DNA from: Halorussus limi
GTDB taxonomy: Archaea; Halobacteriota; Halobacteria; Halobacteriales; Haladaptataceae
Direction of reading: 5' to 3'
DNA: 64,000 nucleotides
NCBI RefSeq assembly: GCF_023238205.1
Contig: NZ_CP096660.1
Location: 186,001 to 250,000, forward strand
Part shown: positions 4,347 through 23,658 of the stretch, one piece after another
Layout of the letters: every line of letters begins with the position of its first letter
Position numbering within the stretch: position 1 is the first letter of the stretch
Program-made: the position numbers and the translations under genes
Notes under the pieces: model-generated
What the model saw: only the letters and a program-made list of their open reading frames with translations
What the model was told of the DNA's origin: nothing
Databases searched by the model: none

Positions 4347-5531
4347 ATGAGTAGACGCCCGGAGTTCGCCCGACGAGTCGGACGGCTACCGCTCGACCTC
4401 GCGGCGGTGGCGGCGCTCGACGCGGTGGCGGCGGCGGCGCTGTTCGTCCCGGCCGTCCGGACGACCCCGATTCGGGTCGTCGTCGGCCTCCCGTTCCTGC
4501 TCGTTCTGCCGGGGTACGCGCTGGTCGCGGCGCTGTTCCCCGAGAACCGGTTCGCGCTCTCGACCGACCGGACCGGCGGGGGCGCGCCCGGCGACCCCGG
4601 GGTCTTCCTGCGCCACGAGTTGGACGGCATCGAGCGACTGGGGCTGTCGGTCGGAGCGAGCATCGTCGTCGTCGCGTCGATAGCGCTCGGACTCGACCGG
4701 TCGGCGGTGGGTCTCGGGACCACCTCGCTCGTCCTGTCGGTCGGCGCGTTCACGCTCGGCGTCGCGCTCCTCGCGGTCCGTCGGCGCGAGCGACTGCCCG
4801 AAGACGAACGGTTCGGGCGCGCTCTCGGCGCTCGACTCGGCTCCGTGCGCGGCGAACTCCTCAGTCCGGACACGCGAGCGGACGCCGCGCTCAACGTGGT
4901 GATGGCGGTGAGCCTGCTCCTCGCGGCCGGGGGCACGGCCTACGCGCTCACCGCCGGGTCCGGCGGCGAGGGCGACACCGAACTGTACCTGCTGTCGGAG
5001 AACGAGGACGGCGAACTCGTCGCCGACAGCTATCCGAACACGGTCGCCGAGGCGAGGCGGAGTCCGCTGGTCGTCGGCCTGCAGAACAACGAGGGCGAAC
5101 CGACGAAGTACACCGTGGTCGCGGAACTCCACCGGGTGGCGGGACCGCCCAACGCGACCCGAATCGTCGCGGAGCGAGAACTCGCCCGGTACGGCGTTCG
5201 CGTTGCTCCCGGCGAGTCGTGGCAGACGCGCCACGTCCCCCGGGTGCAGATGCGCGGCGACCGACTCCGACTCGTCTACCTGCTCTACCGCGGTACCCCG
5301 CCGTCCGACCCGAGCGTCCGGAACGCGGACCGCGAGGTCCACCTCTGGCTGAACGGGACGGCGGCAGCGAGCGGAACGACGACGGCGGCGAGCGGAGCGA
5401 CGACAGCAGGAAACGGAACGACGACAGCAGGAAACGGAACGGCGGCAACCAGAGACGGAACGGCGGTGACGGGAGACGGAACGACGGCCCCGAACCGTGA
5501 CGGCTTCGACCGACTCGGGAGGTGGTCGTGA
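4347..5531 (+). CDS. DUF1616 domain-containing membrane protein
   Basis: A protein of 394 residues if it starts at ATG 4347 (a TTG at 4320 would add 9). It has at least four N-terminal hydrophobic helices and another near residue 195, then an extracellular domain resembling DUF1616 (TELYLLSENEDGELVADSYP, then VGLQNNEGEPTKYTVV). DUF1616 proteins are frequent in haloarchaeal exopolysaccharide and N-glycosylation clusters; the role is unknown. The last 65 residues are Gly/Thr/Ala-rich with NGT sequons, encoded by an imperfect tandem repeat. Its TGA is followed with no gap and in the same frame by the GTG of the flippase gene, so the two are surely one operon. Confidence 0.85.
   Translation: MSRRPEFARRVGRLPLDLAAVAALDAVAAAALFVPAVRTTPIRVVVGLPFLLVLPGYALVAALFPENRFALSTDRTGGGAPGDPGVFLRHELDGIERLGLSVGASIVVVASIALGLDRSAVGLGTTSLVLSVGAFTLGVALLAVRRRERLPEDERFGRALGARLGSVRGELLSPDTRADAALNVVMAVSLLLAAGGTAYALTAGSGGEGDTELYLLSENEDGELVADSYPNTVAEARRSPLVVGLQNNEGEPTKYTVVAELHRVAGPPNATRIVAERELARYGVRVAPGESWQTRHVPRVQMRGDRLRLVYLLYRGTPPSDPSVRNADREVHLWLNGTAAASGTTTAASGATTAGNGTTTAGNGTAATRDGTAVTGDGTTAPNRDGFDRLGRWS
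5360..5500 (+). repeat. Imperfect tandem repeats encoding the Thr/Gly/Asn tail of the DUF1616 protein
   Basis: Units of about 18-21 bases built on GGAACGACGACAGCAGGAAA are repeated several times with substitutions. They encode ASGTTT, AGNGTTT and similar hexa/heptapeptides that contain N-glycosylation sequons. A similar but unrelated tail occurs in the gene ending at 8821. Confidence 0.7.
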
Positions 5532-6962
5532 GTGGACATCGCCCGCTCGACGCTGAAGCTCTACGTCGCCCAACTCGGGAGCGCGGCGCTCGTGGCGGGC
5601 GGTCTCGTGTTCTTCTCCCGGGAACTGGGGGCCGCGACGATGGGGGTGTTCTTCCTCTTTCAGGCGGTGCTGGAGATGCTGATGATTCCCGCCGACTTCG
5701 GCGTCCGCGGGGCCGTCGAGAAGCGAATCAGCGAGGGCGAGAGTCCGCCCGACATCTTCAGCACCGGCCTGCTTCTGAAGGCGGGTCTCGCGGCGTTCGC
5801 CGTCGCGGGCATCCTCGTGTTCCGGGGGCGACTCAACGAGTACATCGGCGCGGAGTTGGCGCTCTACCTCGCGGTCGCAGTCGTCCTCCGGGAGTTCTCG
5901 TGGCTGATGATGCGGGTGCTGAAGGGCGAACTCCGAGTCGAGGAGACCGCGACCCTGAAGTTCGTCCAGAAGGCCGTCTGGATAGTTGGCGGCGGCGCGC
6001 TGGTCTACCTCGGGTGGGAGGTCGAAGGGCTGGTCTACGGCCTCATCGGCGGCTTCGCGGCCGTCCTCGTCTGGGGGACGTGGAAGGTCTCGACGCCGCT
6101 CGGCAGACCCTCCCGCGAGCGGGCCCGGTCGCTGGTGGACTACTCGAAGTACAACGTCGTCACGTCGGTGCAGGGCTACGTCGGTAACTGGCTCGACGTG
6201 GTGTTCATCGGCTTCTTCCTGAGCCAGACCCACGTCGGGGCCTACGAGGTGTCGTGGCGGGTGACGACGTTCGTCCTCCTGCTCAGCAAGGCCATCGCCC
6301 AGAGCATCTTCCCCCAGATAAGCGAGTGGAGCGGCGAGGACGCGACCGGGCGCATCGAGCGTCTCATCACCTCGGTCATCACGCCGTCGGTGTTCCTGCT
6401 GATTCCGGCGCTGGTCGGGACCGCCCTGCTCGCCCGACCGATTCTGGAACTGGTGTTCGGCGCGGAGTTCGGCATCGCCAGCGTCTCGTTCGTCATCCTG
6501 ATGGGGTTCACGCTGATTCGGGGCTTCGGCGTCGTCTTCGGCCGGGCGCTCGGCGCGATAGACGAGATGCGACTCGCGGCCATCTCCGGGGTCGCCGCGA
6601 CCACGAGTAACGTCCTCCTGAACGCGGTGCTGGTCTTCCAGTTCGGTCTCGTCGGCGCGGCGACGGCGACGTTAATCTCGTCGGTGGTGGGGACCGGTCT
6701 CGACGTGCGATTCCTCTCCCAACACATCGACCTCGAACTCCCGGTCACCGAACTGAAGTACTGCGCCGTCTCGGCGGGCGTGATGGGCGTCGTCGTCTAC
6801 CTCGCGCGGTCGAGCATCGGCGTCGGGACCCTCTGGAAACTGGGCGCGGTCATCGCGCTGGGCGGCGCGACGTACGGGGCCGCGGTCTTGGCGTTCCGAC
6901 CGCTCCGGACGCGGGTCCTCGGGACGCTTCCCGTCGGGCGACTCCGGAGGTGGTCGCCGTGA
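5532..6962 (+). CDS. Polysaccharide flippase (oligosaccharide flippase / Wzx-like, MOP superfamily)
   Basis: A 476-residue integral membrane protein with about 12-14 helices and the RfbX/Wzx layout. The N terminus (STLKLYVAQLGSAALVAGG, then FFSRELGAATMGVFFLFQA) is the typical start of polysaccharide biosynthesis flippases. It should move lipid-linked oligosaccharides across the membrane for the surrounding glycan cluster. GTG at 5532 directly abuts the TGA of the DUF1616 gene and is in the same frame. The end (TGA 6960-6962) overlaps the GTG at 6959 of the next gene, so translation of three genes is coupled. Confidence 0.92.
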   Translation: MDIARSTLKLYVAQLGSAALVAGGLVFFSRELGAATMGVFFLFQAVLEMLMIPADFGVRGAVEKRISEGESPPDIFSTGLLLKAGLAAFAVAGILVFRGRLNEYIGAELALYLAVAVVLREFSWLMMRVLKGELRVEETATLKFVQKAVWIVGGGALVYLGWEVEGLVYGLIGGFAAVLVWGTWKVSTPLGRPSRERARSLVDYSKYNVVTSVQGYVGNWLDVVFIGFFLSQTHVGAYEVSWRVTTFVLLLSKAIAQSIFPQISEWSGEDATGRIERLITSVITPSVFLLIPALVGTALLARPILELVFGAEFGIASVSFVILMGFTLIRGFGVVFGRALGAIDEMRLAAISGVAATTSNVLLNAVLVFQFGLVGAATATLISSVVGTGLDVRFLSQHIDLELPVTELKYCAVSAGVMGVVVYLARSSIGVGTLWKLGAVIALGGATYGAAVLAFRPLRTRVLGTLPVGRLRRWSP

Positions 6963-8821: not shown

Positions 8822-9991
8822 CTACAGCACTTCCTCGGCCAGATACGTCTCGAAGTTCTCGACGTACCGCTCTTGACTGAACTGCTCGACGACCGTCCGG
8901 CGCGCGTTCCGACCCATGCGGGCGCGGCGGTCCGAGTCGGAGCCGAGTCGTTCGAGCGCGTCGGCGAGTTCGTCGGTCGAACCCTTCGGGACGATAAATC
9001 CGTTCTCGCCGTGGGCGACGAGTTCCCGGGTGCCGCCCGCGGGCGTCGCCACCACCGGGACGCCGAGCGCGAACGCCTCCATGATGCTCCGGGGAAGCCC
9101 CTCGTTGTACGACGGCAGGACGAAGAGGTCGATTTCCGCGAGCAGGGAGGGCACGTCGTCGCACCACCCGAGGAAGGTGGTCCGGTCCTCGATGCCCGCG
9201 TCAGCGACGCGCCGACGGAGCGACTCCGCGTAGTCGCTGCCGTGCTTGTACGCCTCGTCGGACGCCTCGCCAGCGAAGACGAGTTCGAAGTCGCCCAGCG
9301 AGTCGGCGACCGCTCCGACCGCGTCCACGAGGTGGTGTTGGCCCTTTCGAGGCTGAATCGTCGCCACCTCGGCGATTATCGGCCCGTCGCGGTCGGCGAA
9401 CGGGAAGTCCGGAGCGTCGCGGTCGTCGGCGCTCGTCGCCGAGAACTCGTCCAAATCGACGCCGGTGTAGATGGTCGTCGCCTTCCCGTCGCGGGTCAGC
9501 GGCCCGTCGAACCGGGTCTTGGTCCCGTCCGAGATGGTGATGACGTGGTCGGCGAGGCGGTGCGCGAGCGTGTCGAGGACGGAAATCGGCGTGTCGATGC
9601 GGACGTACCAGACGACGGGAATCCCCAGAAGCTTCGCCGCCGGGCCGAAGAGGACGACCGCTTTCAGACTGTTGCAGTAGACGGCGTCGTAGTCGCGCTC
9701 CCGGAGGTAGCGCACGATTTTGCGCGGGTACCCCGTCACGCCCGCGGCGGTGGACAGCAGCGACGCGGGGTGGGTGTCGAGCAGTTCGTCGCCCGACCGG
9801 TCGAGTTCGTCGGGGAGGCCCACTACGTCCACCGATACGCCGCGCTCGCGGGCCTCGGTAGCGAGCGCTCCCTCGCTCGGGACGACCAGCGTCGCGTCGA
9901 ACGAGTCGGTGTCGGTCAACAGCGGGAGCATCGACTGCTGGGCCCCCGTCACGCTCTCGTAATACGGCTCTACGAAGGCGACCTGCGTCAC
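8822..9991 (-). CDS. Glycosyltransferase family 4 protein 1
   Basis: A GT-B fold, GT4-type glycosyltransferase of 389 residues, transferring sugars from a nucleotide donor on the cytosolic face. The N-terminal Rossmann part begins TQVAFVEPYYESVTGAQQS. The C-terminal domain has VATIQPRKGQ and the donor-binding LPSYNEGLPRSIMEAFALGV, typical of GT4. I prefer the GTG at 9991; the open frame extends to 10135 but that part is basic and un-haloarchaeal. A TATA-like TTACTAAG sits about 29 bases upstream of this GTG. It faces the divergent GT4 gene at 10137 and converges on the operon ending at 8821. Confidence 0.9.
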   Translation of the reverse strand: MTQVAFVEPYYESVTGAQQSMLPLLTDTDSFDATLVVPSEGALATEARERGVSVDVVGLPDELDRSGDELLDTHPASLLSTAAGVTGYPRKIVRYLRERDYDAVYCNSLKAVVLFGPAAKLLGIPVVWYVRIDTPISVLDTLAHRLADHVITISDGTKTRFDGPLTRDGKATTIYTGVDLDEFSATSADDRDAPDFPFADRDGPIIAEVATIQPRKGQHHLVDAVGAVADSLGDFELVFAGEASDEAYKHGSDYAESLRRRVADAGIEDRTTFLGWCDDVPSLLAEIDLFVLPSYNEGLPRSIMEAFALGVPVVATPAGGTRELVAHGENGFIVPKGSTDELADALERLGSDSDRRARMGRNARRTVVEQFSQERYVENFETYLAEEVL

Positions 9992-10136
9992 AGGCCAAAG
10001 AAAGCGAGAGGCGCACTTAGTAATGGCCTCCGTATCGACTCGCCGAGCGAGCGCGCGCCGGGCGCGAGACGGGAAACGGGAGCGAAACGGACGAAACCCC
10101 TTTCCGGCGACGCGTCGTCGTCGGTGACGAGACATC

Positions 10137-11438
10137 GTGCAGGGCCGGATTCGCGTGTGTCACGTACTCAACGCGCTGGGGGACGGCGGGGTGCAGAACC
10201 TGCTGTTGAACATGGTAGAGCGTTCCGAGAGCAACGTCGAGCATTCCATTAGCTATCTGAACGAGTTGGAGACCTCGCTCGAACCGGCGTTTCGGGCGAG
10301 GGGCGTCCGGACGACCGACGCGAGTCCGGGCGGCCAGTTCGACCCGCGGGCGATCCCCGCGCTGGCGCGTCACGCCCGGGAGAACGACGTGGACGTGCTC
10401 CACGCCCACCTGCCGTGGCAACAGGTCGTCGCCAGACTCGCGAGTCTGGCGACCGACGCGGTCGTGGTCAGCACCCACCACAACCTCGGCGACAACACCC
10501 ACCCGGCGGTCGCCACCGCCGAGCGAGCGACCAGACCGCTCGACGCGGCGACGGTCGCGGTGTCGGAGGCGGTCCGCGACCGGCACGCCGGGCGGTGGCT
10601 TCCGGGCGAGGACGGATGGCGCGTCGTCCACAACGGCATCGACGTGCCCGGATTCCGCGAGGAGGTCCGGTCGCGACGCGTCGACGGCGAGGTCCGCGAC
10701 TCAGCGTCGGCCGCGCCGCGCGACACGGACGAGACGGTGGCCGACGGCGGTGCGGACGAACGAGATTCGGGCGGCGACGCTGACGAGCGAACTTCGGACG
10801 CCGACGAGCGGAGTCTGAGCGGCAACGAGCAGAATCCGACCGGCGACGAGCGAAACCCGGCCGACGACGCGGCGGACGAGGGAGGAACCACGTTCCTCCA
10901 CGTCGGCCGGTACATCCCCGGCAAGTCCCAGATAGACCTGCTCCACGCGATGGCGCGCGTCGTCGAGGACCACCCCGACTCGCACCTCTACCTCGTCGGG
11001 TGGGGCGACCTCGAAGCGTCGCTGCGGGACGCTGCCGACCGCCTCGGCGTCGGGGCGAACGTCTCGGTCACGGGGTATCAGAGCGACGTGGAGGCCTACT
11101 ACGCGATGGCCGACGCCTTCGTGTCGAGTTCGCTCTCGGAGGGGTTCCCGATAACCTACATCGAGGCGATGGCCGCGGAGTTGCCCGTGGTCTCGACGGC
11201 GTTCGGCGGGGCCGCCGACATCGTGGCCGACAGCGAGACCGGGTTCGTCGTGCCGACCCGCGACAGGGAGGGTCTCGCCGAGGCGATGCTGGCGCTGGAG
11301 TCGCCCGAGACGCGCCGCGAGATGGGGCGGGCGGGGTACGAGCGCGCGGCCGACCTGTTCGACGTGGGCCGCACCGCGGCGGAGTACCGCCGGATTTACC
11401 GGGAGAGCCTCGGCGCTACCGCTGGAACTCCGGACTGA
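10137..11438 (+). CDS. Glycosyltransferase family 4 protein 2 with an acidic inserted linker
   Basis: A 433-residue GT4 glycosyltransferase. N-terminal domain: IRVCHVLNALGDGGVQNLLL (residues 5-24) and DVLHAHLPWQQ. C-terminal domain from about residue 250: FLHVGRYIPGKSQIDLL, then SSLSEGFPITYIEAMA with the family's E-x7-E donor site. Between the domains, residues about 185-249 form an Asp/Glu/Arg-rich low-complexity stretch with repeated DER/DADER units that normal GT4 enzymes lack. GTG at 10137 is the only start close to the conserved VCHVLN strand. Its 3' end overlaps the convergent gene ending at 11416 by 23 bases. Confidence 0.9.
   Translation: MQGRIRVCHVLNALGDGGVQNLLLNMVERSESNVEHSISYLNELETSLEPAFRARGVRTTDASPGGQFDPRAIPALARHARENDVDVLHAHLPWQQVVARLASLATDAVVVSTHHNLGDNTHPAVATAERATRPLDAATVAVSEAVRDRHAGRWLPGEDGWRVVHNGIDVPGFREEVRSRRVDGEVRDSASAAPRDTDETVADGGADERDSGGDADERTSDADERSLSGNEQNPTGDERNPADDAADEGGTTFLHVGRYIPGKSQIDLLHAMARVVEDHPDSHLYLVGWGDLEASLRDAADRLGVGANVSVTGYQSDVEAYYAMADAFVSSSLSEGFPITYIEAMAAELPVVSTAFGGAADIVADSETGFVVPTRDREGLAEAMLALESPETRREMGRAGYERAADLFDVGRTAAEYRRIYRESLGATAGTPD
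10689..10883 (+). repeat. Low-complexity insertion within the GT4 gene
   Basis: Short repeats of GACGAGCGA with Ser/Thr/Pro/Asn spacers encode roughly 65 residues of DER/GNEQNP/GDERNP units exactly at the hinge between the two Rossmann domains. The reading frame is kept throughout, so it is an expansion of the linker and not a break. Confidence 0.6.
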
Positions 11439-12618
11439 GCGTGTTCCGCTCCTCGCGGGCGTCGGCGGGGCGAGAGGCCGACGCGACGCTCTCGTACATC
11501 CCGATTGACCAGTTGTGGCCGAAGACGCCCCGGCCCCAGTCGATGTTGCCGTCCACCGCGCACCGCCACGTCGTGCCGTCGAACCACGGGTCGACGTGGT
11601 GCATCTTCCCCGAGTTCCACCCGACCGACGAGTCGCTGGCCCGAATCGTCGGCGACGAGTCGAGTTCCGCGTCCGCGTAGCTCTCCGGCGTGAGGTCCGT
11701 GATTTCGAAGGTCCGGACCTGCTCGCCGTAGCCCGCGATACACTGCTGGAGGAACAGCAGGACTCGGTTCTCGCGCACGATTGGTCGGCCCGCGGGCCGG
11801 GCCGCGCGCGGCCGGTCCTCGACGACGGGGTTGTCGGCGTGAGGTTGCCAGTCGTCGGACCGGAGTCGCGGCGAGTGGTAGGCGTACAGGTCGCGCTCGT
11901 CGCCCGCGACGGCCCACCAGCGACCGCCCCACCGGAAGACGACGGTGTCGCTCACGGGGGAGTCGGGCGACAGTATCGTCGCCGCCTCGGTCCAGTCGTA
12001 GGGGAAGTTTTGGGCCTCGTAGAGTCGAATCTCGGCGGTCCCCGACGACTTGTCCCACGGGTCGGGCAGGAGGTAGTGGGTCCCCTCCCACGCGAACACG
12101 TACGGGAACGAGAGGTGGGCGTCGGTCCGCAACACGACGCGGTCGTACTCCCACGACGACCCGCCGTCGGGACTGGTCGCGTGCCCGATGACGGCCGTCG
12201 GGTCGGCGTCCTGATTGAAGATTTCGAAGAACATGTGCCACTCGCCCGACGCGGTGACGAACAGGAACGGGTCGGCCACGCCGCCGACGCGCCCGTAGTC
12301 GGTCACGTCGCGGGCGGTCAGGACGGGGTTGGCCGCGTCGGGCGACGGCCGGAGGGCTATCGGGTCGAAGGGAGCGTCGCGGTACGGATACGTCGGAATC
12401 GTCTCGCCGGTGTAGCACCGCCGAGCGGACGGGTCCGTCTGCCGGTCGTCGGCCGACGACCGACTCGAACCCGAGCCACCGACTACCCGCGGGACCGTGT
12501 GGTGGAGCGTCTTGCCGACCCGCCAGCTCAGCTGACGGACCACCGGGACGTTGCCGAGTCGCGCCCGGAGGGAATGGACGACCTCGTCGCGGAGTTCGGA
12601 GGGCGAGTTCCGTTTCAT
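11416..12618 (-). CDS. GINT1-like five-bladed beta-propeller protein (glucosamine inositolphosphorylceramide transferase N-domain family)
   Basis: A 400-residue soluble protein whose residues about 95-370 look like the five-bladed propeller domain shared with the N-terminal domain of plant GINT1 and with GH43/GH32-type folds. Blade motifs are GGVADPFLFVTASGEWHMFFE, SYPYVFAWEGTHYLLPD-like and WWAVAGDERDLYAYHS. The GINT1 name reflects homology only; the archaeal substrate is unknown, probably a sugar in the surface glycan. The ATG at 12618 shares one base with the TGA of the upstream ATP-grasp gene (TGATG), so the two are translated together and probably act on the same substrate. Its tail overlaps the convergent GT4 gene by 23 bases. 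Confidence 0.8.
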   Translation of the reverse strand: MKRNSPSELRDEVVHSLRARLGNVPVVRQLSWRVGKTLHHTVPRVVGGSGSSRSSADDRQTDPSARRCYTGETIPTYPYRDAPFDPIALRPSPDAANPVLTARDVTDYGRVGGVADPFLFVTASGEWHMFFEIFNQDADPTAVIGHATSPDGGSSWEYDRVVLRTDAHLSFPYVFAWEGTHYLLPDPWDKSSGTAEIRLYEAQNFPYDWTEAATILSPDSPVSDTVVFRWGGRWWAVAGDERDLYAYHSPRLRSDDWQPHADNPVVEDRPRAARPAGRPIVRENRVLLFLQQCIAGYGEQVRTFEITDLTPESYADAELDSSPTIRASDSSVGWNSGKMHHVDPWFDGTTWRCAVDGNIDWGRGVFGHNWSIGMYESVASASRPADAREERNTLSPEFQR

Positions 12619-13922
12619 CACTCGAAGTCGGGTTCGTTCACTTCCAGCCGCGAGCGCTGGGGCGGTTCGGTCGGCACCGACGCCGGGTCGTCCTCGTCGG
12701 CGGAACCGACGAGTCGGTCCGACAGCCCAGCGATTCGGTTCGACGCGTACCGGGCGAACGGCAGGGGGTCGGTCGGGTCGAGGTAGTCGAAGCGGGGGTG
12801 GCGGACCAGCGAGGTCAGCACGTCCGCCGCCGTCCTCGCGAACGACGGACGCTCGACGAGCGCGGTGTCGTCGGCGAGGATGCTCAGCAGGTGGCTGGCC
12901 TCCCCGCTCAGCAGGTGACCCGCCGTGCCCACCTCGTAGTCGCACTCGATGCGGTCGCGGTCCCCGTTCGCCAGCAGCCACGCGTAGTACGGGAAGTCCG
13001 CGCCCGCCTGCACGGTGAACGGGAGCGACGACCAGAACCGCGGGTTTATCTCCATGAGTTCGAAGTCGCCGGTGTCGGGGTCGCGGAGGAACTCGACCAT
13101 CGCCACGCCGTGCCAGTCGAGGTGGTCGAGCAGTCGCGTGCCGAGTCGCTCCAGTTCCGGAATCTCGACCGACCGCCGGAACGCGCTCGCGCCGCCGCTG
13201 TAGTGGACGCCCCGAATCTGGCGGTGCTGGAAGGTGGCGACCGCCTCGCCCTCGTCGTAGAGCGCGAAGAAGCCGTACTCGTCGGTCGAGCGCAGGTACT
13301 CCTGCACGATGGGCACGTGGTGCATGTCGGCCACGGCCCGGTCGGCGTCCGGACGCTCGCCCGCCGGGAGGTAGCGCGTCGTCGGCGGACGGGCGAGTCC
13401 GCGGGACTCACCCGCCCCGTGCGCGCCGCTGTCGGTCGGCAACACCGAGTATCGACCCTTCATTATCCACGGCCGCGACCAGTCCGAGCACTCGGTCAGC
13501 AGGTGGGTCTCCGGCGAGGGCACGCCGACCTTTCGGGCGGCGTCGTAGAGCCGAATCCGGTCCTGGACCGTTCGCAGCGTCTCGAACTCCGGCCACGGCG
13601 TGCCGACGTGGTCGGCGAACTCGTCGCGGTACTTCGAGAGGAGATACACGTCCTTCTCTCGGACCGGAAGGACGGTCCGAACGTCGGACCGGCGCGCGAG
13701 GCCGAGTAACGCCTCCTTGTACGCCGTGGCGTCCCGGGACGGCGACGGCACGACGACCGACTCGTCGCAGTACCGCGACCGGAACGCCTCGGCGGACTCG
13801 TCCTCCGAGACCAGTATCGTTTTGAAACCGCGGCGACCCAGCGACCGTGCGCAAGCGAGTGAACTCGGATGCGTTATCGCAGGCACGACGACCCCGTCCC
13901 CCGCTCCACCTTTCGCAGACAT
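12618..13922 (-). CDS. ATP-grasp carboxylate-amine ligase-like protein
   Basis: A 434-residue ATP-grasp enzyme, expected to join a carboxylate to an amine or alcohol with ATP hydrolysis. The N-terminal Rossmann part starts VVVPAITHPSSLACARSLG (residues 11-29). The ATP-grasp core has Lys155 in WIMKGRYSV, VQEYL at 206-210 and the magnesium-binding ELMEINPRFWSS (Glu291, Asn293). ATG at 13922 is chosen because the upstream extension of the frame is not protein-like. In haloarchaeal polysaccharide clusters such ligases probably attach amino acids or similar groups to sugars; that is inference. It is coupled to the propeller protein by TGATG. Confidence 0.87.
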   Translation of the reverse strand: MSAKGGAGDGVVVPAITHPSSLACARSLGRRGFKTILVSEDESAEAFRSRYCDESVVVPSPSRDATAYKEALLGLARRSDVRTVLPVREKDVYLLSKYRDEFADHVGTPWPEFETLRTVQDRIRLYDAARKVGVPSPETHLLTECSDWSRPWIMKGRYSVLPTDSGAHGAGESRGLARPPTTRYLPAGERPDADRAVADMHHVPIVQEYLRSTDEYGFFALYDEGEAVATFQHRQIRGVHYSGGASAFRRSVEIPELERLGTRLLDHLDWHGVAMVEFLRDPDTGDFELMEINPRFWSSLPFTVQAGADFPYYAWLLANGDRDRIECDYEVGTAGHLLSGEASHLLSILADDTALVERPSFARTAADVLTSLVRHPRFDYLDPTDPLPFARYASNRIAGLSDRLVGSADEDDPASVPTEPPQRSRLEVNEPDFE

Positions 13923-14187
13923 GTCGTTATTACAAACGCTACGGTAGGTTTTCTTAAAGAAGTTGCTCCCGTTGACGCGGCTCCGGCACGTTATTGTATC
14001 CGTACGCCCCCGAAATTTCATTCGTTTGCCACCTCGTATCCGCCTCCGAGGCGCCGCGAGTCGGTCGGACGAGGCCAATGCGCGAGTCGCGGACCGACCA
14101 ACCGCCGACGGAAGGTGGCGGCCCGTCCACGTCGAGTCCGGACAAGGCCCGAGGCCGACCGCCTGCCACGGCTTACCGCGAGTCGGG

Positions 14188-14442: not shown

Positions 14443-14827
14443 CGACACAGACCGTATGCTCCGTAATTCTATGTAAGTACCGGCCGGGCGCCGGCGGTTC
14501 GCGCCGCCCGACCGGAAGCGAGCGCGGTCGAAACCGGTTCTCGGCCCGTCACCGCGAGACCAGTCCAAGCCCAGAGCGAAAGAAAGAGTCTAGTCTAGGA
14601 AGTCTAGGTATTATGGCCCAATTTCCTACGTTAAGCCAGTAATATCTCCAGATGCCGAAATATCCGGTTGCTGTTACGGAAGATTGATGAAGAGGTGTTG
14701 CAAATCCAGTTCCCGTGGCCCCGTCACGGACCGTCCGGGTACGCCGAAGCCCTCCTCGCGGGAGACGACTGTGGGGCGAGTGGGAGAGCGCCCGGCGTCC
14801 GGCGGCGGGTCGAACGAGTTGGTATCT
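14443..14827. other. Gap between divergent genes, AT-rich promoter region
   Basis: No convincing gene. Around 14588-14660 the sequence becomes AT-rich with GTCTAGTCTAGGAAGTCTAG, three copies of a TCTAG core, and several TATA-like stretches (AATATC, GAAATATCC). It probably holds the promoters of the small membrane protein to the left and of the beta-helix protein to the right. The frame continuing 5' of the beta-helix gene to 14684 is Arg/Ser-rich and looks non-coding. Confidence 0.5.
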
Positions 14828-15877
14828 ATGACAGACAACCACGAATATCAGACTCCCTCGAAGGGAGCGAACGATTGGCACATCCCGATCAACAAGAACT
14901 TCGCGGCGCTCGACGCCGACGTCGAGATCCGCGACGCCGCCCAGAATCGCTCGCAGTACAAGCCCAAGCAGGGCGCGAAGTTCCTCGCGACCGACTCCGG
15001 CGAGCGGTTCATCGGCGACGGTAGTCAGTGGACGAAGCTTCCGTACCCCGGTTCCAGCGACGGACAGACCACGTCCCAGACCAACGAGGGCGACCGACCG
15101 CTCACGACGACGGGCAGCGTCGGCGTCACGGTGGACTCGGGCGGTGGCGGCGATTACGAGTCGATTCAGGCCGCCATCAACAACGAGGTGCCGTGGCTGG
15201 TCCAACACCCCATCGACATCGGAGTGAAGGGCGGAACGTACGACGAGGACATTCTCCTCCCGCCCTACATGTCCAACTGGGCCGAGCAGGGCGACCGGGG
15301 CGAGCGCATTCCCATCCAGATTACCGGTGACACGAACTCGCCGTCGAACGTGAAGGTGAACTCGTTCATGGCGACCGGCGGCGTCGGCGTGACGCAGATC
15401 CGCGGTATCGAGTTCACGGGCGTCAGCCCCTACGACGACGAGAACACGGCCTTCTCGGTGTACAACACCAACCGGGTGGGTATCATCGACTGTAACATCA
15501 ACACCAGCGGAAACGCGATGACGGCCTACAACGGCCAAATCTGTGCGGTTCGCGTCAAGGTAAACGGTGGCGGTTGGGGCATCAAGGTCAAGCACAACGG
15601 CCAGTACTGGGAGTCCGGCAGCGGCGTCTCCGGGTCGGTCAGCGGCAAAGCCTACAACATGGACGACGGGACCATCAAGTTCAACCACAAGGACAACGGC
15701 CACATCTCCGGCAACCCGACCGTCGCGGCCGACAAGAGCCACGACGGCGGGTTCGTGCTGGACGAGGGCAAGGGTCGACTCTACGGCGTCAATCGACTCG
15801 CGGTGGCCGACCAGAGCGACGGGTCGCTCCACGACATCGTGGTCGAGAACGGGTCCGTGACCGCGAAGAAACTGTAA
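14828..15877 (+). CDS. Right-handed parallel beta-helix protein with phage-tail-like N terminus
   Basis: A 349-residue protein with no signal peptide or membrane helix. Residues about 10-70 (GANDWHIPINKNFAALDADV, then GAKFLATDSGERFIGDGSQW) resemble the N-terminal capsid-attachment part of phage tail-fibre/tailspike and GH28-like proteins. From about residue 100 (VTVDSGGGGDYESIQAAIN) it follows the pectin-lyase/parallel beta-helix pattern, with repeated NCNINTSGNAM-type turns. Possible roles are a glycan lyase/hydrolase or a structural spike bound to surface polymer. Base composition is like its neighbours, so there is no clear sign of recent transfer. ATG at 14828 (MTDNHEYQTP) begins the protein-like sequence. 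Confidence 0.82.
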   Translation: MTDNHEYQTPSKGANDWHIPINKNFAALDADVEIRDAAQNRSQYKPKQGAKFLATDSGERFIGDGSQWTKLPYPGSSDGQTTSQTNEGDRPLTTTGSVGVTVDSGGGGDYESIQAAINNEVPWLVQHPIDIGVKGGTYDEDILLPPYMSNWAEQGDRGERIPIQITGDTNSPSNVKVNSFMATGGVGVTQIRGIEFTGVSPYDDENTAFSVYNTNRVGIIDCNINTSGNAMTAYNGQICAVRVKVNGGGWGIKVKHNGQYWESGSGVSGSVSGKAYNMDDGTIKFNHKDNGHISGNPTVAADKSHDGGFVLDEGKGRLYGVNRLAVADQSDGSLHDIVVENGSVTAKKL

Positions 15878-15936: not shown

Positions 15937-16860
15937 TCACATCTCGACGTAGCCGAGGTCGGCGAGTCGCTCCGAGACGGTTTCGTCGTCGATGCTGTCG
16001 GTGTCGGCGCGCGACTCGCCCGCGACGATGTTTCTGCGGTCTCCCGACTCGCGGACCAGCCACGGCACTCGTACCAACTGGTCGGTGTAAAGTTTGGGCG
16101 GGTGGCCGAAGAACGGCACCGGAATCGGGGAACTGCGCTCGCCGAACATGTTGCCGTGGTCCGAGGTCACGACGGTCCGGCCGTCGAGTTCCTCGACCAA
16201 CTCCTCGACGTGAGGGAGGGCGCGCTCGAGGTTCTCCTCGAAGAGGTCCCAGAGTCGGCGACGCGAGATATCGAGTTGGCCGTTGTTGAGTTCGTGCCAG
16301 AAGCTCTTGTCCTTCTCCGCGCCGTCGTGGAGCTGTTTCTTGTCGAACTCCGTGTCGGACTCGATGAAGGGGTAGTGTGGCTGGATGTAGTGGACGAGGA
16401 GCCGTTTGTTCGGGTACTCCTCGTAGGCGTCGAGCGCGTACTCGGTCGTCGTCTCCGGGAGGACCGTCTTGACGTCTTCGTGCCACCCCGCCTCGTTCCA
16501 GACGTTGATGACTTCGTGGAAGGAGGCGTCGATGGCGTCCTGATGGTAGTAGTAGATGGGACTCGCCGTGACGTAGACCGTGTCTTCGAGGTCCTGTCCG
16601 TTGCAGTTGGCCTTGAGGAACTCCGAGGTGTTCGACCCGCGCGATATCTTGGTCTCGACTTCCCCCGAGAGCGTGTTCGACATCCGGAACTGGTCGTCGC
16701 GGCAGGCGTCAAGGATGACGAGGTTGTCCCAGTCCTCGGCGAAGATGTTCGTCCCGTCCGTGTTGTACTCGCGTCGGTCCATGCGGGTGTGGTAGAGACT
16801 GTTTAACTTTTTAATAATTAGATTCGGATGGTACGGGAGCGCCTCTGCGAGCGTATCCAT
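15937..16860 (-). CDS. Sulfatase-like / alkaline phosphatase superfamily protein 2
   Basis: A 307-residue member of the alkaline phosphatase superfamily, shorter than usual (450-500). It keeps the metal-site motifs NLVILDACRDDQF (Asp51) and VVTSDHGNMFGE (DHG at 234-236), while the nucleophile region is SRGSNTSEFLKAN, so Ser or Thr replaces Cys. I choose ATG 16860 because a perfect TATAAA lies 31 bases upstream, giving a leaderless transcript; ATG at 16875 would leave too short a distance. Probably adds or removes phosphate or sulfate groups on surface glycan. It converges on the beta-helix gene. Confidence 0.85.
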   Translation of the reverse strand: MDTLAEALPYHPNLIIKKLNSLYHTRMDRREYNTDGTNIFAEDWDNLVILDACRDDQFRMSNTLSGEVETKISRGSNTSEFLKANCNGQDLEDTVYVTASPIYYYHQDAIDASFHEVINVWNEAGWHEDVKTVLPETTTEYALDAYEEYPNKRLLVHYIQPHYPFIESDTEFDKKQLHDGAEKDKSFWHELNNGQLDISRRRLWDLFEENLERALPHVEELVEELDGRTVVTSDHGNMFGERSSPIPVPFFGHPPKLYTDQLVRVPWLVRESGDRRNIVAGESRADTDSIDDETVSERLADLGYVEM

Positions 16861-16885
16861 AGATACCGTACACATCGTCCTCACC

Positions 16886-16891
16886 TTTATA
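16886..16891 (-). promoter_or_regulatory. TATA box of the 15937-16860 gene
   Basis: TATAAA on the minus strand, 26-31 bases upstream of ATG 16860. This spacing is that of a leaderless haloarchaeal promoter and decides between two possible start codons. Confidence 0.7.
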
Positions 16892-17311
16892 CGTAGTGCC
16901 CGCCGGGAGCAGGGCGGAGCGATTACTCTCGCGGGGCCTCCTGTCAGACCGGAATTGACTGTGGGAAAGACCCACATCCGGGTTTTCCCCCAATCTGACA
17001 CTGTCGGTAACGGACGCAACGACCGCACTAACGAGCCAATAACGGTCCGAGTCGGCTCTCCGACGGGCCGCGGTCAGTGAGGAAACCGCGCCGTTCCGCT
17101 TCAGCGCCGTGTTCGAGCGCGTGCGGTCGCGAATCGAAACCGGTGGTTTCCAGACGGCGGTAAGCGACGGAAAGAATCGGAAACGGGGGAATACCCAACG
17201 GAAATCCGAAATTCCGAGTATTTGTCGGCTGTTATACTCTTTGAGCGCAAATAATAACGGGCAGATAACAAAGGAAGCAAGAACCCTCCTTTCAGGCGAG
17301 GAGATGGGGAA
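16892..17311. other. Divergent intergenic region
   Basis: About 420 bases without a protein-like frame. It holds the promoter of the gene to the left and, on the right, an AT-rich part (17215-17285, TTATACTCTTTGAGC and AAATAATAACGGGCAGATAACAAAGG) that likely carries the promoter of the GT2-GT4-FemAB operon. A GGCGAGGAGATGGGG stretch just before ATG 17312 could act as a ribosome binding site. Confidence 0.5.
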
Positions 17312-18637
17312 ATGGGGGTACTACCATCAGGCCCACAGCGTGCCGAGCGTAATCGACGCGATACGCGTCCGGCCGTCGGTCTGATAGCGACTGAGTCGAA
17401 CAAGGAGTCAATCGAGAGAGCGATACGGCGGGCCAGCGACCTCGGCTACGAGGTCTTCGTCGCGCCCGGGTGTGAGGAGTCGGCCGAACTCGTCCGGCAA
17501 CTGGACGGGACCGTCGTCCGACCGCACGAGAGCGACGGCGACCACAAGGTCGACGACCTGCGGGTCGCGCTGGCTGCTGCCGCGCGCGACGCCGAGTTCC
17601 CCGGACTTATACTCTCCGAGGAGTCTACCGGCCGAATCGACTACACGCGAAGTATCTCGACGTTTCGAGAGCGCGACTCGTACGTCGTCCCCGCTGTCGA
17701 CCTGGAGTCTGCGCACGCGCGGGAAACCGACCCTATCGTCGCGGGCATCCCGGCGTACAACGAGGGCGAGACGATAGGACAGATAGTAGACATGACGACC
17801 GAGTACGTCGACGAAGTCGTCGTCGTGGACGACGGGAGCGCCGACCGGACCGCGGAGGAGGCGAAACGGGAAGGCGCAGTCGTCATCCGTCACTCCGCGA
17901 ACAGAGGGAAAGGTGCCGCCCTGAGGAGTCTGCTCGACTACGCCGAGCGGCGGTCGTGTTCCGCGCTCGTCTTGCTCGACGGCGACGGACAGCACCTTCC
18001 CCGAGACATCCCCACCGTCGTTCAACCGGTCCTCGACGGCGACGCCGACGTGGTCATCGGGAGCCGGTACCTCCGGCAGGGGATGGGGACCGAGACGCCG
18101 CTCTACCGGCGTCTCGGCCAGCGAGTCCTCGACCAGAGCATCTCGTTTCTGTTCGGCGTCTCGGTCTCGGACACACAGAGCGGGTTCCGGGCGCTCTCCC
18201 CGGAGGCCGTCGAGGACATCACCATCCGGACGAACGGGATGGCCGTCGAGACAGAGATGCTAGACGCCGCGAACCGCAACGACCTGACCATCGCGGAGCG
18301 CCCGATACGGGTACAGTACGACGTTCGCAACGGCCAGACGTACAACCCGGTCCGCCACGGAGTGACCGTCCTCGGGCGCATCGTCCAGTTGGTGGCCCGA
18401 GGTCTGCTGAACCAGTCGTCCCGCGAAGGGACCGACGACCGGGGCCGGGCGCGCGACGCCGGGACCCCGACGGAGGGAGAGCGCGCGGCCCGGCGGCGCG
18501 AGCGGGCCGTCGCGCTGGGTAACGGGCGAACGCCGGGGGAGAGCGATATGCCGGCGGACGGCGGGCGAGCGCCGATGCCGGGCGACGCGAGCGGAGACAA
18601 CCAGAGCGCCGACGAGCGAGAGCAGCCACAACGATGA
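17312..18637 (+). CDS. Glycosyltransferase family 2 (dolichyl-phosphate glycosyltransferase-like) with extra N-terminal domain
   Basis: A 441-residue protein. Residues 20-130 form an extra alpha/beta domain (AVGLIATESNKESIERAIRR) seen in some haloarchaeal GT2 proteins, function unknown. The GT2 domain follows: PIVAGIPAYNEGETIG at 141-156, VVVDDGSADRT at 170-180, LLDGDGQHLPRDI with the catalytic metal-binding Asp residues, and DTQSGFRAL, all as in DPM/DPG synthase-like enzymes. The last 75 residues are hydrophilic low-complexity. It probably moves a sugar from a nucleotide to a lipid or glycan carrier. The stop overlaps the ATG of the next GT4 gene (ATGA). Confidence 0.9.
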   Translation: MGVLPSGPQRAERNRRDTRPAVGLIATESNKESIERAIRRASDLGYEVFVAPGCEESAELVRQLDGTVVRPHESDGDHKVDDLRVALAAAARDAEFPGLILSEESTGRIDYTRSISTFRERDSYVVPAVDLESAHARETDPIVAGIPAYNEGETIGQIVDMTTEYVDEVVVVDDGSADRTAEEAKREGAVVIRHSANRGKGAALRSLLDYAERRSCSALVLLDGDGQHLPRDIPTVVQPVLDGDADVVIGSRYLRQGMGTETPLYRRLGQRVLDQSISFLFGVSVSDTQSGFRALSPEAVEDITIRTNGMAVETEMLDAANRNDLTIAERPIRVQYDVRNGQTYNPVRHGVTVLGRIVQLVARGLLNQSSREGTDDRGRARDAGTPTEGERAARRRERAVALGNGRTPGESDMPADGGRAPMPGDASGDNQSADEREQPQR

Positions 18638-19977
18638 CCGACAGCCGAGAACGGACACAGCGACGCGACGCACCGAGAGGAGAGGTCGAATCGACGCGAC
18701 GAGACGAACCGAGGCGACGGGGCGAGTCGGGACGGACCGACTCGGCCCGACCGACGCGACCGATACGGGACGACGGCCGACTGCGGATTCTCCGCGTGAG
18801 CAGCGACATCCACCCGGAGGTCCCCGGCGGACTCGGCCTCCACGTCCACAGCCTCTCGGAGAAGCAGGCCGAGATGGGCCACGACGTGACGGTTCTGACG
18901 TCCGACCACGGCGACCGGTCGCTCCCGCGCACCGAAGTCCGGGACGGCTACGCGCTGAAGCGCCACCGCGAGGTGGCGAGGCCCGTGGACAACAGCATCG
19001 TGCCGGGCGTCGCGAAATCGCTGTGGGACCTCGCCGACGAGTACGACGTGGTTCACGCCCACTCGCACCTGTTCTTCTCGTCGAACGTGGCCGCGGCCAT
19101 GGCCGCGCTGACCGACGTACCGCTGGTCGTCACCAACCACGGCCTGTTCTCGCAGTCGGCGAATCAGACGGTGCAGGAGGCGTACCTCTACACCGTCGGC
19201 CGGAAGACGTTCGACGCGGCCGAGCGGGTGTTCTGCTACTCCGAGACCGACCGCGACCGACTGCAGTCCTACGGGGTCGAGACCCCGGTGTCGGTCGTCC
19301 GGAACGGCATCGACTGCACGAGGTTCCGGCCGGTCGAAGCAAGCCAGAGCGACGAGGGGAGGGAAGAAAGCGAACGCGGAGGCGACGGCGACACGCTGCT
19401 GTTCGTCGGGCGACTGAAACCCGGCAAGGGCGTCCGGGTCCTCCTGCGGGCGATGGCCGAACTGGGCGAGGAGTTCCCCGACGCGACGCTCAGGATAGTC
19501 GGCGACGGCCCGCTCCGGGAGTCGCTCGAGGAGTACGCCGCCGAGTGCGGCGTGGCCGACCGCGTGACCTTCACCGGGTGGCTCTCGCAGGACCGACTCC
19601 CCGAGGAGTACGGCGAGGCCACCGTCTTCGTCCTGCCGAGTCTGAACGAGGGGTTCCCGCGGACCGTCCTCGAAGCGCTGGCCTGCGAGACCCCGGTCGT
19701 GACCACCGACCTGCCGCAGCTCGAATCGGTCCTCGACGGAGTGGGCCTGACCGTGCCGCCGAAGTCGCCGGACCTGCTGGCGTCCGCGGTCGGCGAACTG
19801 CTGGCGGACGACGAGCGCCGCGAGCGCATGGCGGCCGAGGGTCGCTCGCTCGTCGCCGAGCGCTACTCGTGGGACCGGACCGTCGAGGAGACGACCGCGA
19901 CGTACTACGACGTGCTGGGCGTCGAACCGCCGCGCGACGCCCGCACGCTTCCCGAAGGGAGCGTGCAGCACCGATGA
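18634..19977 (+). CDS. Glycosyltransferase family 4 protein 3
   Basis: A 447-residue GT4 enzyme. After a 48-residue Arg/Asp-rich N-terminal extension, the first Rossmann domain has LRILRVSSDIHPEVPGGLG and VVHAHSHLFFSSN. The second has LLFVGRLKPGKGVRVLLRAM and VLPSLNEGFPRTVLEALACE, the normal GT4 donor-binding E-x7-E region. It shares an ATGA overlap with the GT2 gene upstream (ATG 18634) and another with the FemAB gene downstream (ATG 19974), so the three are translationally coupled. Expected to add a sugar to the cluster's surface polymer. Confidence 0.92.
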   Translation: MTDSRERTQRRDAPRGEVESTRRDEPRRRGESGRTDSARPTRPIRDDGRLRILRVSSDIHPEVPGGLGLHVHSLSEKQAEMGHDVTVLTSDHGDRSLPRTEVRDGYALKRHREVARPVDNSIVPGVAKSLWDLADEYDVVHAHSHLFFSSNVAAAMAALTDVPLVVTNHGLFSQSANQTVQEAYLYTVGRKTFDAAERVFCYSETDRDRLQSYGVETPVSVVRNGIDCTRFRPVEASQSDEGREESERGGDGDTLLFVGRLKPGKGVRVLLRAMAELGEEFPDATLRIVGDGPLRESLEEYAAECGVADRVTFTGWLSQDRLPEEYGEATVFVLPSLNEGFPRTVLEALACETPVVTTDLPQLESVLDGVGLTVPPKSPDLLASAVGELLADDERRERMAAEGRSLVAERYSWDRTVEETTATYYDVLGVEPPRDARTLPEGSVQHR

Positions 19978-22236: not shown

Positions 22237-23658
22237 ATGGCTTCAGCGGCGGAAACAGTGCTGAGAATGTACGGGAACAGCGACACTCCTCTCTCGATGC
22301 AGTTAGTCTGGGCGCTCTACGACCACATCCCCGAGACGGTCCAAGCCTCGGCCGAACCGCTGTACTACTGGTACCAGTCGAAGCGCGCCGACCAGCGCCA
22401 CGTTCCCCCGACCCGAACCGCCCGTCGGCGCGAGGACGCGCCCGACCACGTGCTGACGGTGGTCGTGGACGCGCTCCGACCCGACCACGTTCCGAGCGTC
22501 GGAATGCCGTTCGACACCGCTATCGCACCGAGTACGTGGACGTTCCCGTCGGTGACGAGCATGCACACCGGGGTCTACCCGAGCGAACACGGCGCGTCGG
22601 CCCACACCCGGCCCGACGCCGAGGAGTACGCGATGCCCCGGCAGGTGGACGACCGGCCGACGCTCCCGGCCGAGATGGAGGCGGCGGGCTACGACACCTA
22701 CGGCGGGTTCGCGTTCGTCGTCCCGTTCACCGCGCTCCGGGGCTGGTATCAGACCCATCGGCTCTACGGCAACGACCTCGCGGAGAATCTCTTCTCGGAC
22801 TACGTCTCGTGGCGAGGCGGCCGCGACCGGACGTTCGGCTACCTCCACCTCGGCGACCTCCACCAGCCGATTCGCATCCCGGACGAGTATCTGGAGGCCC
22901 GAGACGTGGACACGCGAGTGTTCGACGAGGTGGAGATGTGCGTCGAGTTCGACGGGTGCGAGAGCTGCCGGCGAATTCAGCGCGAGCGATTCGCCGAGTA
23001 TCGGGCGGCGCTCGACTACGTGGAGGACCAACTCGACCGACTCCTCTCGGTGGTCGGCGACGACACGCTGGTGGTCGTGGTCGGCGACCACGGCGAGGGG
23101 CAGGGCGAACACTACGAGCGCGCCAACCGCATCACCGACTCGCGGCCGAACGGCGGGAGCGGCTACCGGGGCAACGTCGGCCACGGCGGGACTCCGTTCG
23201 ACGTGGTGGCCCGCGTCCCGGTCGGCGTCTCGGACCCCGAGGACTCGAACGCAGATACGCTGCTCCCCGAGGGCGGGTGGCCGAGTCTCGTGGACCTCGC
23301 GCCGACGATTCTGGAGGAGACGGTCGGCGACTCCCGACTCACCGACGAGGCCACGGGGCGGCCGTGGCAGTCCGAGATTCCCGCCGACCGGACGGCCGTC
23401 TGCGAGGCGGCGCGGTTCGGCGTCGAGCGCAAGGCCGCCTACCGGGGCGACTCGAAGGTCATCCGGTCGGAGGCCGACGACGTGACCTACACCGCGCGCG
23501 TCGAGCAGTCGGAACCGGGCGAGGAGTTCCGGACGATTCCGGTCCGCGAGCGCGAGGAGTTGCTGGCGAGTCTACCGGACAACTGGGAGGACTTCGACGT
23601 GACCCGGTCGGTCAGTCCGGCGGTCGAGCGGCGACTGGAGAAGCTGGGATACCGGTGA
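22237..23658 (+). CDS. Sulfatase-like / alkaline phosphatase superfamily protein 3
   Basis: A 473-residue enzyme with VLTVVVDALRPDHV (Asp78), STWTFPSVTSMHTG with Thr102 at the nucleophile place, and VVVVGDHGEGQGEHY near residue 285. It ends SPAVERRLEKLGYR, like the other sulfatase-like proteins here. As in copy 1, Thr stands where formylglycine Cys/Ser would be. ATG 22237 is the first possible start; a TTTATG TATA-like element just upstream would also suit a leaderless start at ATG 22267. Last gene of the glycan cluster; likely tailors the polymer with phosphate-type groups. Confidence 0.9.
   Translation: MASAAETVLRMYGNSDTPLSMQLVWALYDHIPETVQASAEPLYYWYQSKRADQRHVPPTRTARRREDAPDHVLTVVVDALRPDHVPSVGMPFDTAIAPSTWTFPSVTSMHTGVYPSEHGASAHTRPDAEEYAMPRQVDDRPTLPAEMEAAGYDTYGGFAFVVPFTALRGWYQTHRLYGNDLAENLFSDYVSWRGGRDRTFGYLHLGDLHQPIRIPDEYLEARDVDTRVFDEVEMCVEFDGCESCRRIQRERFAEYRAALDYVEDQLDRLLSVVGDDTLVVVVGDHGEGQGEHYERANRITDSRPNGGSGYRGNVGHGGTPFDVVARVPVGVSDPEDSNADTLLPEGGWPSLVDLAPTILEETVGDSRLTDEATGRPWQSEIPADRTAVCEAARFGVERKAAYRGDSKVIRSEADDVTYTARVEQSEPGEEFRTIPVREREELLASLPDNWEDFDVTRSVSPAVERRLEKLGYR

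Follow-up and report, generated by a model that had tools for sequence, protein, structure and literature searches.

The window, by which we mean the whole stretch of DNA that was analysed, is 64,000 nucleotides long and part of a 414,603-base contig in the haloarchaeal genome of Halorussus limi. It contains an open reading frame of 349 amino acids, flanked by genes of ATP-grasp and sulfatase-like type, and the parts of this frame are listed together with its neighbours in Table 1. Genes of the FemAB/GNAT-like kind also occur among the neighbours, and the flippase, the DUF1616 protein, the GT4 and GT2 glycosyltransferases and the sulfatases identify the region as a haloarchaeal polysaccharide cluster, in agreement with the sequence-only reading, which had placed a spike-like gene among glycosyltransferases. 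Elsewhere in the window, between 48200 and 49100, the G+C fraction per 100 bases goes down to 0.32, compared with 0.60-0.73 outside this stretch.

Table 1. Positions in the window of the 349-residue protein, its parts and the neighbouring genes
Feature	Position	Strand	Remark
DUF1616 membrane protein, neighbour	4347..5531	+	
Polysaccharide flippase, neighbour	5532..6962	+	
GT4 glycosyltransferase, neighbour	8822..10135	-	
GT4 glycosyltransferase, neighbour	10137..11438	+	
ATP-grasp ligase-like, neighbour	12618..14021	-	also adjoins the H. pelagicus homologue
Chimeric tail-spike-like protein, CDS, 349 aa	14828..15877	+	ATG start 14828, stop 15875-15877
Portable module, residues 1-77	14828..15058	+	profile match E 1.1e-39
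Tail-fibre N-terminal motif xxPxxGxxDWxxPxNxNFxxLD, residues 1-33	14828..14926	+	hhalign to virus N-termini
Mtd_N-like stretch (weak), residues 35-66	14930..15025	+	E 0.24 for this protein, below cut-off
Halovirus spike body, PHROG 1627 type, predicted beta-helix, residues ~86-329	15083..15814	+	
Short C-terminal tail replacing the virus C1q-like head, residues 330-349	15815..15874	+	from alignments
Sulfatase-like, neighbour, convergent	15937..17028	-	E 0.002, below cut-off; also adjoins the H. pelagicus homologue
GT2 glycosyltransferase, neighbour	17312..18637	+	
GT4 glycosyltransferase, neighbour	18634..19977	+	
Sulfatase, neighbour	22237..23658	+	

An in-frame TTG at 14684 would extend the frame in the 5' direction; homology, however, begins at 14828. 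Full-length homologues occur in two further genomes of the same genus, and the H. limi genome itself has a paralogue with 38% identity over residues 1-319, located in a separate polysaccharide region some 18 kb upstream of the window. When the gene is compared with its homologue in Halorussus pelagicus, the fractions of differing first, second and third codon positions are 0.35, 0.21 and 0.43. From these differences and from the intact homologues it follows that the frame is a real and constrained gene. Neither a Pfam search with the whole protein nor an NCBIfam search assigns it to a family. The two strings quoted in the sequence-only reading, NDWHIPINKNFAALDADV and FLATDSGERFIGDGSQW, are both present, and its remark that an export signal is lacking agrees with the hydropathy of the protein: the Kyte-Doolittle mean over 19 residues has a maximum of 0.66 in the whole protein and of 0.03 within the first 60 residues, and neither a membrane segment nor a signal peptide of its own, by which a secreted surface protein would be recognised, is found.

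Residues from about 86 to about 330 form a body that is related to the tail spikes of haloviruses. It matches PHROG 1627 over residues 86-283 with an E value of 1.4e-19, and a second PHROG family of tail proteins with an E value of 2.9e-7. The halovirus relatives for which the earlier reading had proposed a search are recovered for this body by tblastn against phage records: HALG_00044 of Halorubrum CGphi46, with 36% identity over residues 112-257 (E 6e-14), and gp29 of HSTV-1, annotated as 'virion component' (E 3e-3). Viral scans with body profiles return HSTV-1 only, and those with the 349-residue protein and with the CGphi46 protein as queries return no matches. In the alignment, the CGphi46 and HSTV-1 proteins continue into a head that is absent from the 349-residue protein, and which we call C1q-like after a weak Pfam match of a related C-terminus. 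The beta-helix-like body is thus common to the PHROG 1627 halovirus spikes and the window protein, but the spikes carry other N-termini and the C1q-like head, whereas the window protein carries a cellular module and is headless. The layout of base, beta-helix, stalk and head that the cited part of PMC12494034 gives for the tail fibre gp42 of HFTV1 exemplifies how a halovirus fibre is built.

A body of this kind could be what is left, without function, of a former provirus, but several observations make this very unlikely. A search with two viruses as seeds revealed no viral genes near the window gene, the frame is intact in four genes with constrained codons, the gene is syntenic in the H. pelagicus cluster, and two copies are found in two clusters of one genome. 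Nor are there any virion genes around the window gene, the neighbours of which are polysaccharide genes, in contrast to the provirus at L235, where the body is surrounded by nine genes like those of CGphi46 or HSTV-1.

The AlphaFold model of the 349-residue protein, calculated from a three-row alignment, has a mean pLDDT of 48.9, and the model of HSTV-1 gp29 has 41.4; at this quality the model is of no use on its own, and we attach no weight to catalytic geometry. A fold search in BFVD ranks the CGphi46 and HSTV-1 proteins first and third, though with a low-confidence model and a score that is sensitive to sequence, and a fold search in the PDB gives nothing significant and has the P22 tailspike on top at an E value of 0.48. 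When the body profile is compared with the PDB, the matches are pectinesterases only (four of four, all weak, the best with E 0.002), and the similarity is confined to the start of the helix, that is, to the first 50 or so residues of the profile; beyond these and chance matches, no solved chain matches the 349-residue protein in sequence. Pectinesterases are right-handed beta-helix carbohydrate esterases, and a right-handed beta-helix body would fit the weak matches to them. A beta-helix downstream of the N-terminus, as put forward in the sequence-only reading, is accordingly supported by likeness to the virus spike and to pectinesterases, at the level of sequence.

A beta-helix with a pectinesterase-like start may also be read as a domesticated depolymerase, i.e., a lyase, hydrolase or esterase that would cut the polymer of its own cell, to control chain length or to release it. 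If such an enzyme acted in the cytoplasm on nascent chains, this would account for the missing signal. The lyase-like and beta-helix C-termini that are joined to the module elsewhere would fit this explanation, as would the conservation of D139, E140, D203, E205, D279 and K255 across the bodies of cells and viruses. The active-site motif of pectinesterases is QD, however, and it is absent from the cell copies of the body; E140 is located in a GxYxE turn, where its role is presumably structural; and Tat export of the body in other genomes also counts against this reading. Since no catalytic site or motif is recognised in the spike body, binding of a polymer appears more likely than cutting, and we regard the depolymerase as an unlikely alternative.

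Consider next the first 77 residues, which recur, with high sequence identity, at the start of proteins that have unrelated C-termini. This is exemplified by the 18 plasmid records that match the 349-residue protein, one over most of its length and the others over approximately the first 70-87 residues. A profile built from an alignment of 16 such modules matches in 103 of 391 Halobacteria genomes, representing 43 of 86 genera, but among 2.9 million viral contigs it matches only three times, weakly and over approximately 30 residues, so that within the genomes and contigs searched the full module of 77 residues is seen in cells only. When the approximately 30 virus-matching residues are used for the scan, 11 viral contigs are found, in each of which the open frame begins with the motif. 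Ten of these viral proteins were compared with PHROG, the eleventh being left out as nearly identical to another, and seven match tail families. An hhalign comparison of the modules with the N-termini of viral tail fibres reaches a probability of 98 over 32 columns, a value with some circularity, as a related motif pattern had served to collect the viral proteins. The Mtd_N family (PF18454), the N-terminal domain of the major tropism determinant among tail receptor-binding proteins, weakly matches the second half of the module, in 10 of the 16 module rows at E≤1, with 8.6e-5 as the best value, while the 349-residue protein itself, at 11.8 bits, falls short of the curated cut-off of 26.3 bits and is otherwise unrelated to these proteins. 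A single scan of genome contigs with narrow patterns found one locus.

Judged from these comparisons, the module is derived from, or closely resembles, the base of a tail fibre, whereas the complete module belongs to cells. The sequence-only reading had named, as evidence against itself, an N-terminal part confined to cellular genes and unlike tail proteins. The first half of this is what we find for the full 77 residues; the second half is not, since the first 32 residues match tail proteins by profile, as the reading's description of the N-terminus as tail-fibre-like had implied. Its proposal that the protein comes from a virus tail consequently holds for both halves, by the match to PHROG 1627, the CGphi46 protein and the provirus at L235 for the body and by the profile match for the N-terminus. 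The position of the module is not fixed, for at L136 and L137 a beta-helix protein ends with it. At two further loci (L012:8001-10241 and L017:8004-10284) a stand-alone module gene is followed by a separate beta-helix gene, likewise without signal peptide.

The surroundings of the module were sampled by fetching 100 module neighbourhoods and 20 control regions. At 66 of the 87 strong loci (L051-L137, picked at E<1e-20), two or more genes of polysaccharide type are found no farther than about 20 kb away, compared with 1 of 20 controls, where it should be noted that the loci are non-independent, many coming from one genus, and that the polysaccharide labels were assigned with a set of 22 seeds, among which are a tail tube and several proteins from this window, so that they are biased towards such clusters. 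When glycosyltransferases alone are counted, at least one is found at 63 of the 87 strong loci and in 2 of the 20 controls. Of the weaker loci (L138-L150), 7 of 13 have at least two polysaccharide genes. The 21 of 87 strong loci with fewer than two such genes count against a link to glycan loci. On balance, a module that is cellular and polysaccharide-linked is supported by the genome and locus counts, which thereby extend what had been suggested for the spike gene alone. The C-terminal parts are diverse: 121 module proteins fall into 24 unrelated C-terminal clusters and 14 stand-alone modules, and among those tested are beta-helices, tail-spike-like stretches, a lyase-like domain, an S74 chaperone and a C1q-like head akin to the one in PHROG 1627. 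No earlier account of such a module or of such loci was found in the literature searched.

Cells reuse virus tails mainly, as far as is known, in the form of whole machines, such as tailocins and injection systems. The sequence-only reading had offered, as its second possibility, that the gene belongs to an extracellular injection or spike device, and this finds no support. The families for the contractile tube (PF06841) and sheath (PF04984) are absent from this genome and from 8 other genomes sampled from the genus. Across the 391 genomes the module is statistically unlinked to either: of the 103 genomes with the module, 17 have the sheath and 22 the tube, and of the 288 without it, 32 and 58 (p 0.17 for the sheath, p 0.78 for the tube). 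The sheath-positive genomes number 49 of 391, in agreement with the 41 of 350 haloarchaeal genomes (12%) for which contractile injection systems are given in the cited part of PMC11566945; the proteins of those systems are, like the one described here, tail-derived and made by the cell. That the protein is the fibre of a tailocin or of a contractile injection system, for which its tail-fibre-like N-terminus might speak, is thus highly improbable. A tail-tube-like gene (PF06841, TIGR02241) directly preceding a module gene that also encodes an S74 chaperone domain, which may likewise be cited in favour of such a fibre, is seen at two loci (L006:9541-9987 and L101:10194-10640); both tube genes are located beside giant surface-type proteins, in genomes that are tube-positive and sheath-negative.

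How the body is used by other cells can be seen from what precedes it. A profile built from eight bodies matches in 28 of 391 genomes. It matched 29 of 30 loci, of which 22 were kept at E<1e-13 and 7 weaker ones excluded. Ten of the 22 bodies are preceded by a Tat signal, recognised by pattern and by eye (four of these with a lipobox cysteine), four by the module, three are virus-like and signal-less, and five have a short, signal-less N-terminus. The four with a module are the window gene, its paralogue and two from other genomes of the genus. The virus-like ones include, besides the provirus at L235, one (L237) with a small twin-arginine protein five bases upstream. Of the ten bodies with a Tat signal, seven reside in polysaccharide loci. 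The body thus occurs in a virus form, in a Tat-signal form that is sometimes lipid-anchored, and in a module form, and from sequence we infer that either the module or the Tat signal can serve as its front end. If so, the protein probably acts outside, on the cell's own polymer. Against this count the five of 22 bodies that have neither Tat signal nor module and whose context is not virus-like, and the full-length homologue at L111, which is located outside any polysaccharide locus. Two distinct spike-body proteins with Tat signals are found in one polysaccharide cluster (L233:3456-4424 and L233:16729-17703), and the remaining virus-like body, which has a C1q-like head and comes from a genome of the same genus, is located close to genes for a flippase and a nucleotidyltransferase, where none of the genes is labelled as viral (L236:9347-10822).

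We therefore favour, with a probability of roughly 0.55, the explanation that the protein is a cell-owned, virus-derived spike that acts at the cell surface on the polymer of its own cluster. The beta-helix body would have been taken over from a halovirus tail spike by an ancestral haloarchaeon, and this body, which lacks the head, would have been coupled to the short module of tail-fibre origin that recurs in the surface-glycan loci of haloarchaea. The module would be the attachment end, equivalent for the cell to the tail-fibre base on the virion, and the protein would be outside and surface-bound, where its beta-helix would bind, and perhaps process, the polymer. What the sequences show is the ancestry of both halves, the link to the cluster, the missing export signal, the lost C1q-like head, and the body in Tat-exported or lipid-anchored form elsewhere; the outside location, a trimeric state, the polymer as ligand and the mode of leaving the cell, for which this genome yielded no partner, are inferred. 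The export signals on relatives of the spike in other archaea suggest that an attachment tool of viruses has turned into a part of the cell surface. That the gene is a domesticated viral spike, a view close to the domesticated viral depolymerase that the earlier reading had suggested, is supported by the virus-tail ancestry and the cellular polysaccharide locus taken together, and the family is wider than this one gene.

What we have here is a lone spike with its front end swapped, apparently tied to genes for surface polymers, and the polymer made by such genes may be what the viral ancestor of the spike recognised. If this is true, it would be a recurring haloarchaeal route from virus attachment protein to component of the host's coat. 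Two questions would then become testable, namely by which route surface proteins that have no signal exit from haloarchaeal cells, and whether a captured spike benefits its cell by anchoring of the polymer, its trimming or resistance to viruses.

One candidate for the exit route is seen at other module loci. At 61 of 102 loci (87 strong, 14 annotated or from the same genome, and the window) the module gene is directly preceded on the same strand, mostly at a distance of -3 to +34 bases, by a gene whose product has a C-terminal tail that resembles [DE][FY]G[ES][QE]GYGx[YG]GYGG. This count is from six-frame open reading frames, in which the regular expression also matches in 2 of 20 control regions; from called genes it is 48 of 102. 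Twin arginines and a hydrophobic stretch, scored by pattern and by eye, are present in 60 of the 61 partners, and a twin arginine together with a lipobox cysteine in 43. A further GYGG is found upstream of the tail in 57, and several carry CBM, LamG or PPC domains. Across genomes, the GYG pattern is found in 55 of 103 with the module and 6 of 288 others, whereas the reversed pattern is unskewed (21 of 103 and 50 of 288). Such a partner is not found in the window, the cluster or the whole genome of the window gene, and it is absent from all four members of the protein's C-terminal cluster.

In the 'hitchhiker' export of E. coli PaoABC, as given in the cited part of PMC4273604, signal-less partners ride through Tat with a partner that bears the signal. 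By analogy, the GYGxxGYGG protein, Tat-exported and often lipid-anchored, may bind the module of its signal-less partner in the cytoplasm, take the folded partner through the Tat pore, and thereby show interchangeable spike, lyase or binding heads, mounted on a tail-fibre base, on the cell's own polysaccharide. The window protein, for which no GYG partner was detected, would then be a branch with a different carrier or with one that the searches did not identify. We offer this more specific mechanism tentatively, as less probable than the favoured explanation of a cell-surface spike. The coupling to membrane-directed Tat proteins also bears on another alternative, in which the protein is a soluble decoy or weapon that is freed by lysis and would cover or attack a polysaccharide receptor, be it that of neighbours or that of viruses. 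The missing export signal, the virus-spike ancestry and the variable C-termini in surface-glycan loci would all agree with such a role, but the frequent coupling of the module to these Tat proteins, and the lipid-anchored bodies elsewhere, point to the producer's own surface, and make a decoy or weapon improbable.

As to the partners themselves, a lipobox is found, according to the cited part of PMC2945643, on roughly half of haloarchaeal Tat substrates. No NCBIfam family accounts for the GYGxxGYGG tail. Uncharacterised Tat proteins with this tail, usually with a second GYGG, are exemplified by L054:10215-10475 and L066:9680-10012, and there are many others.
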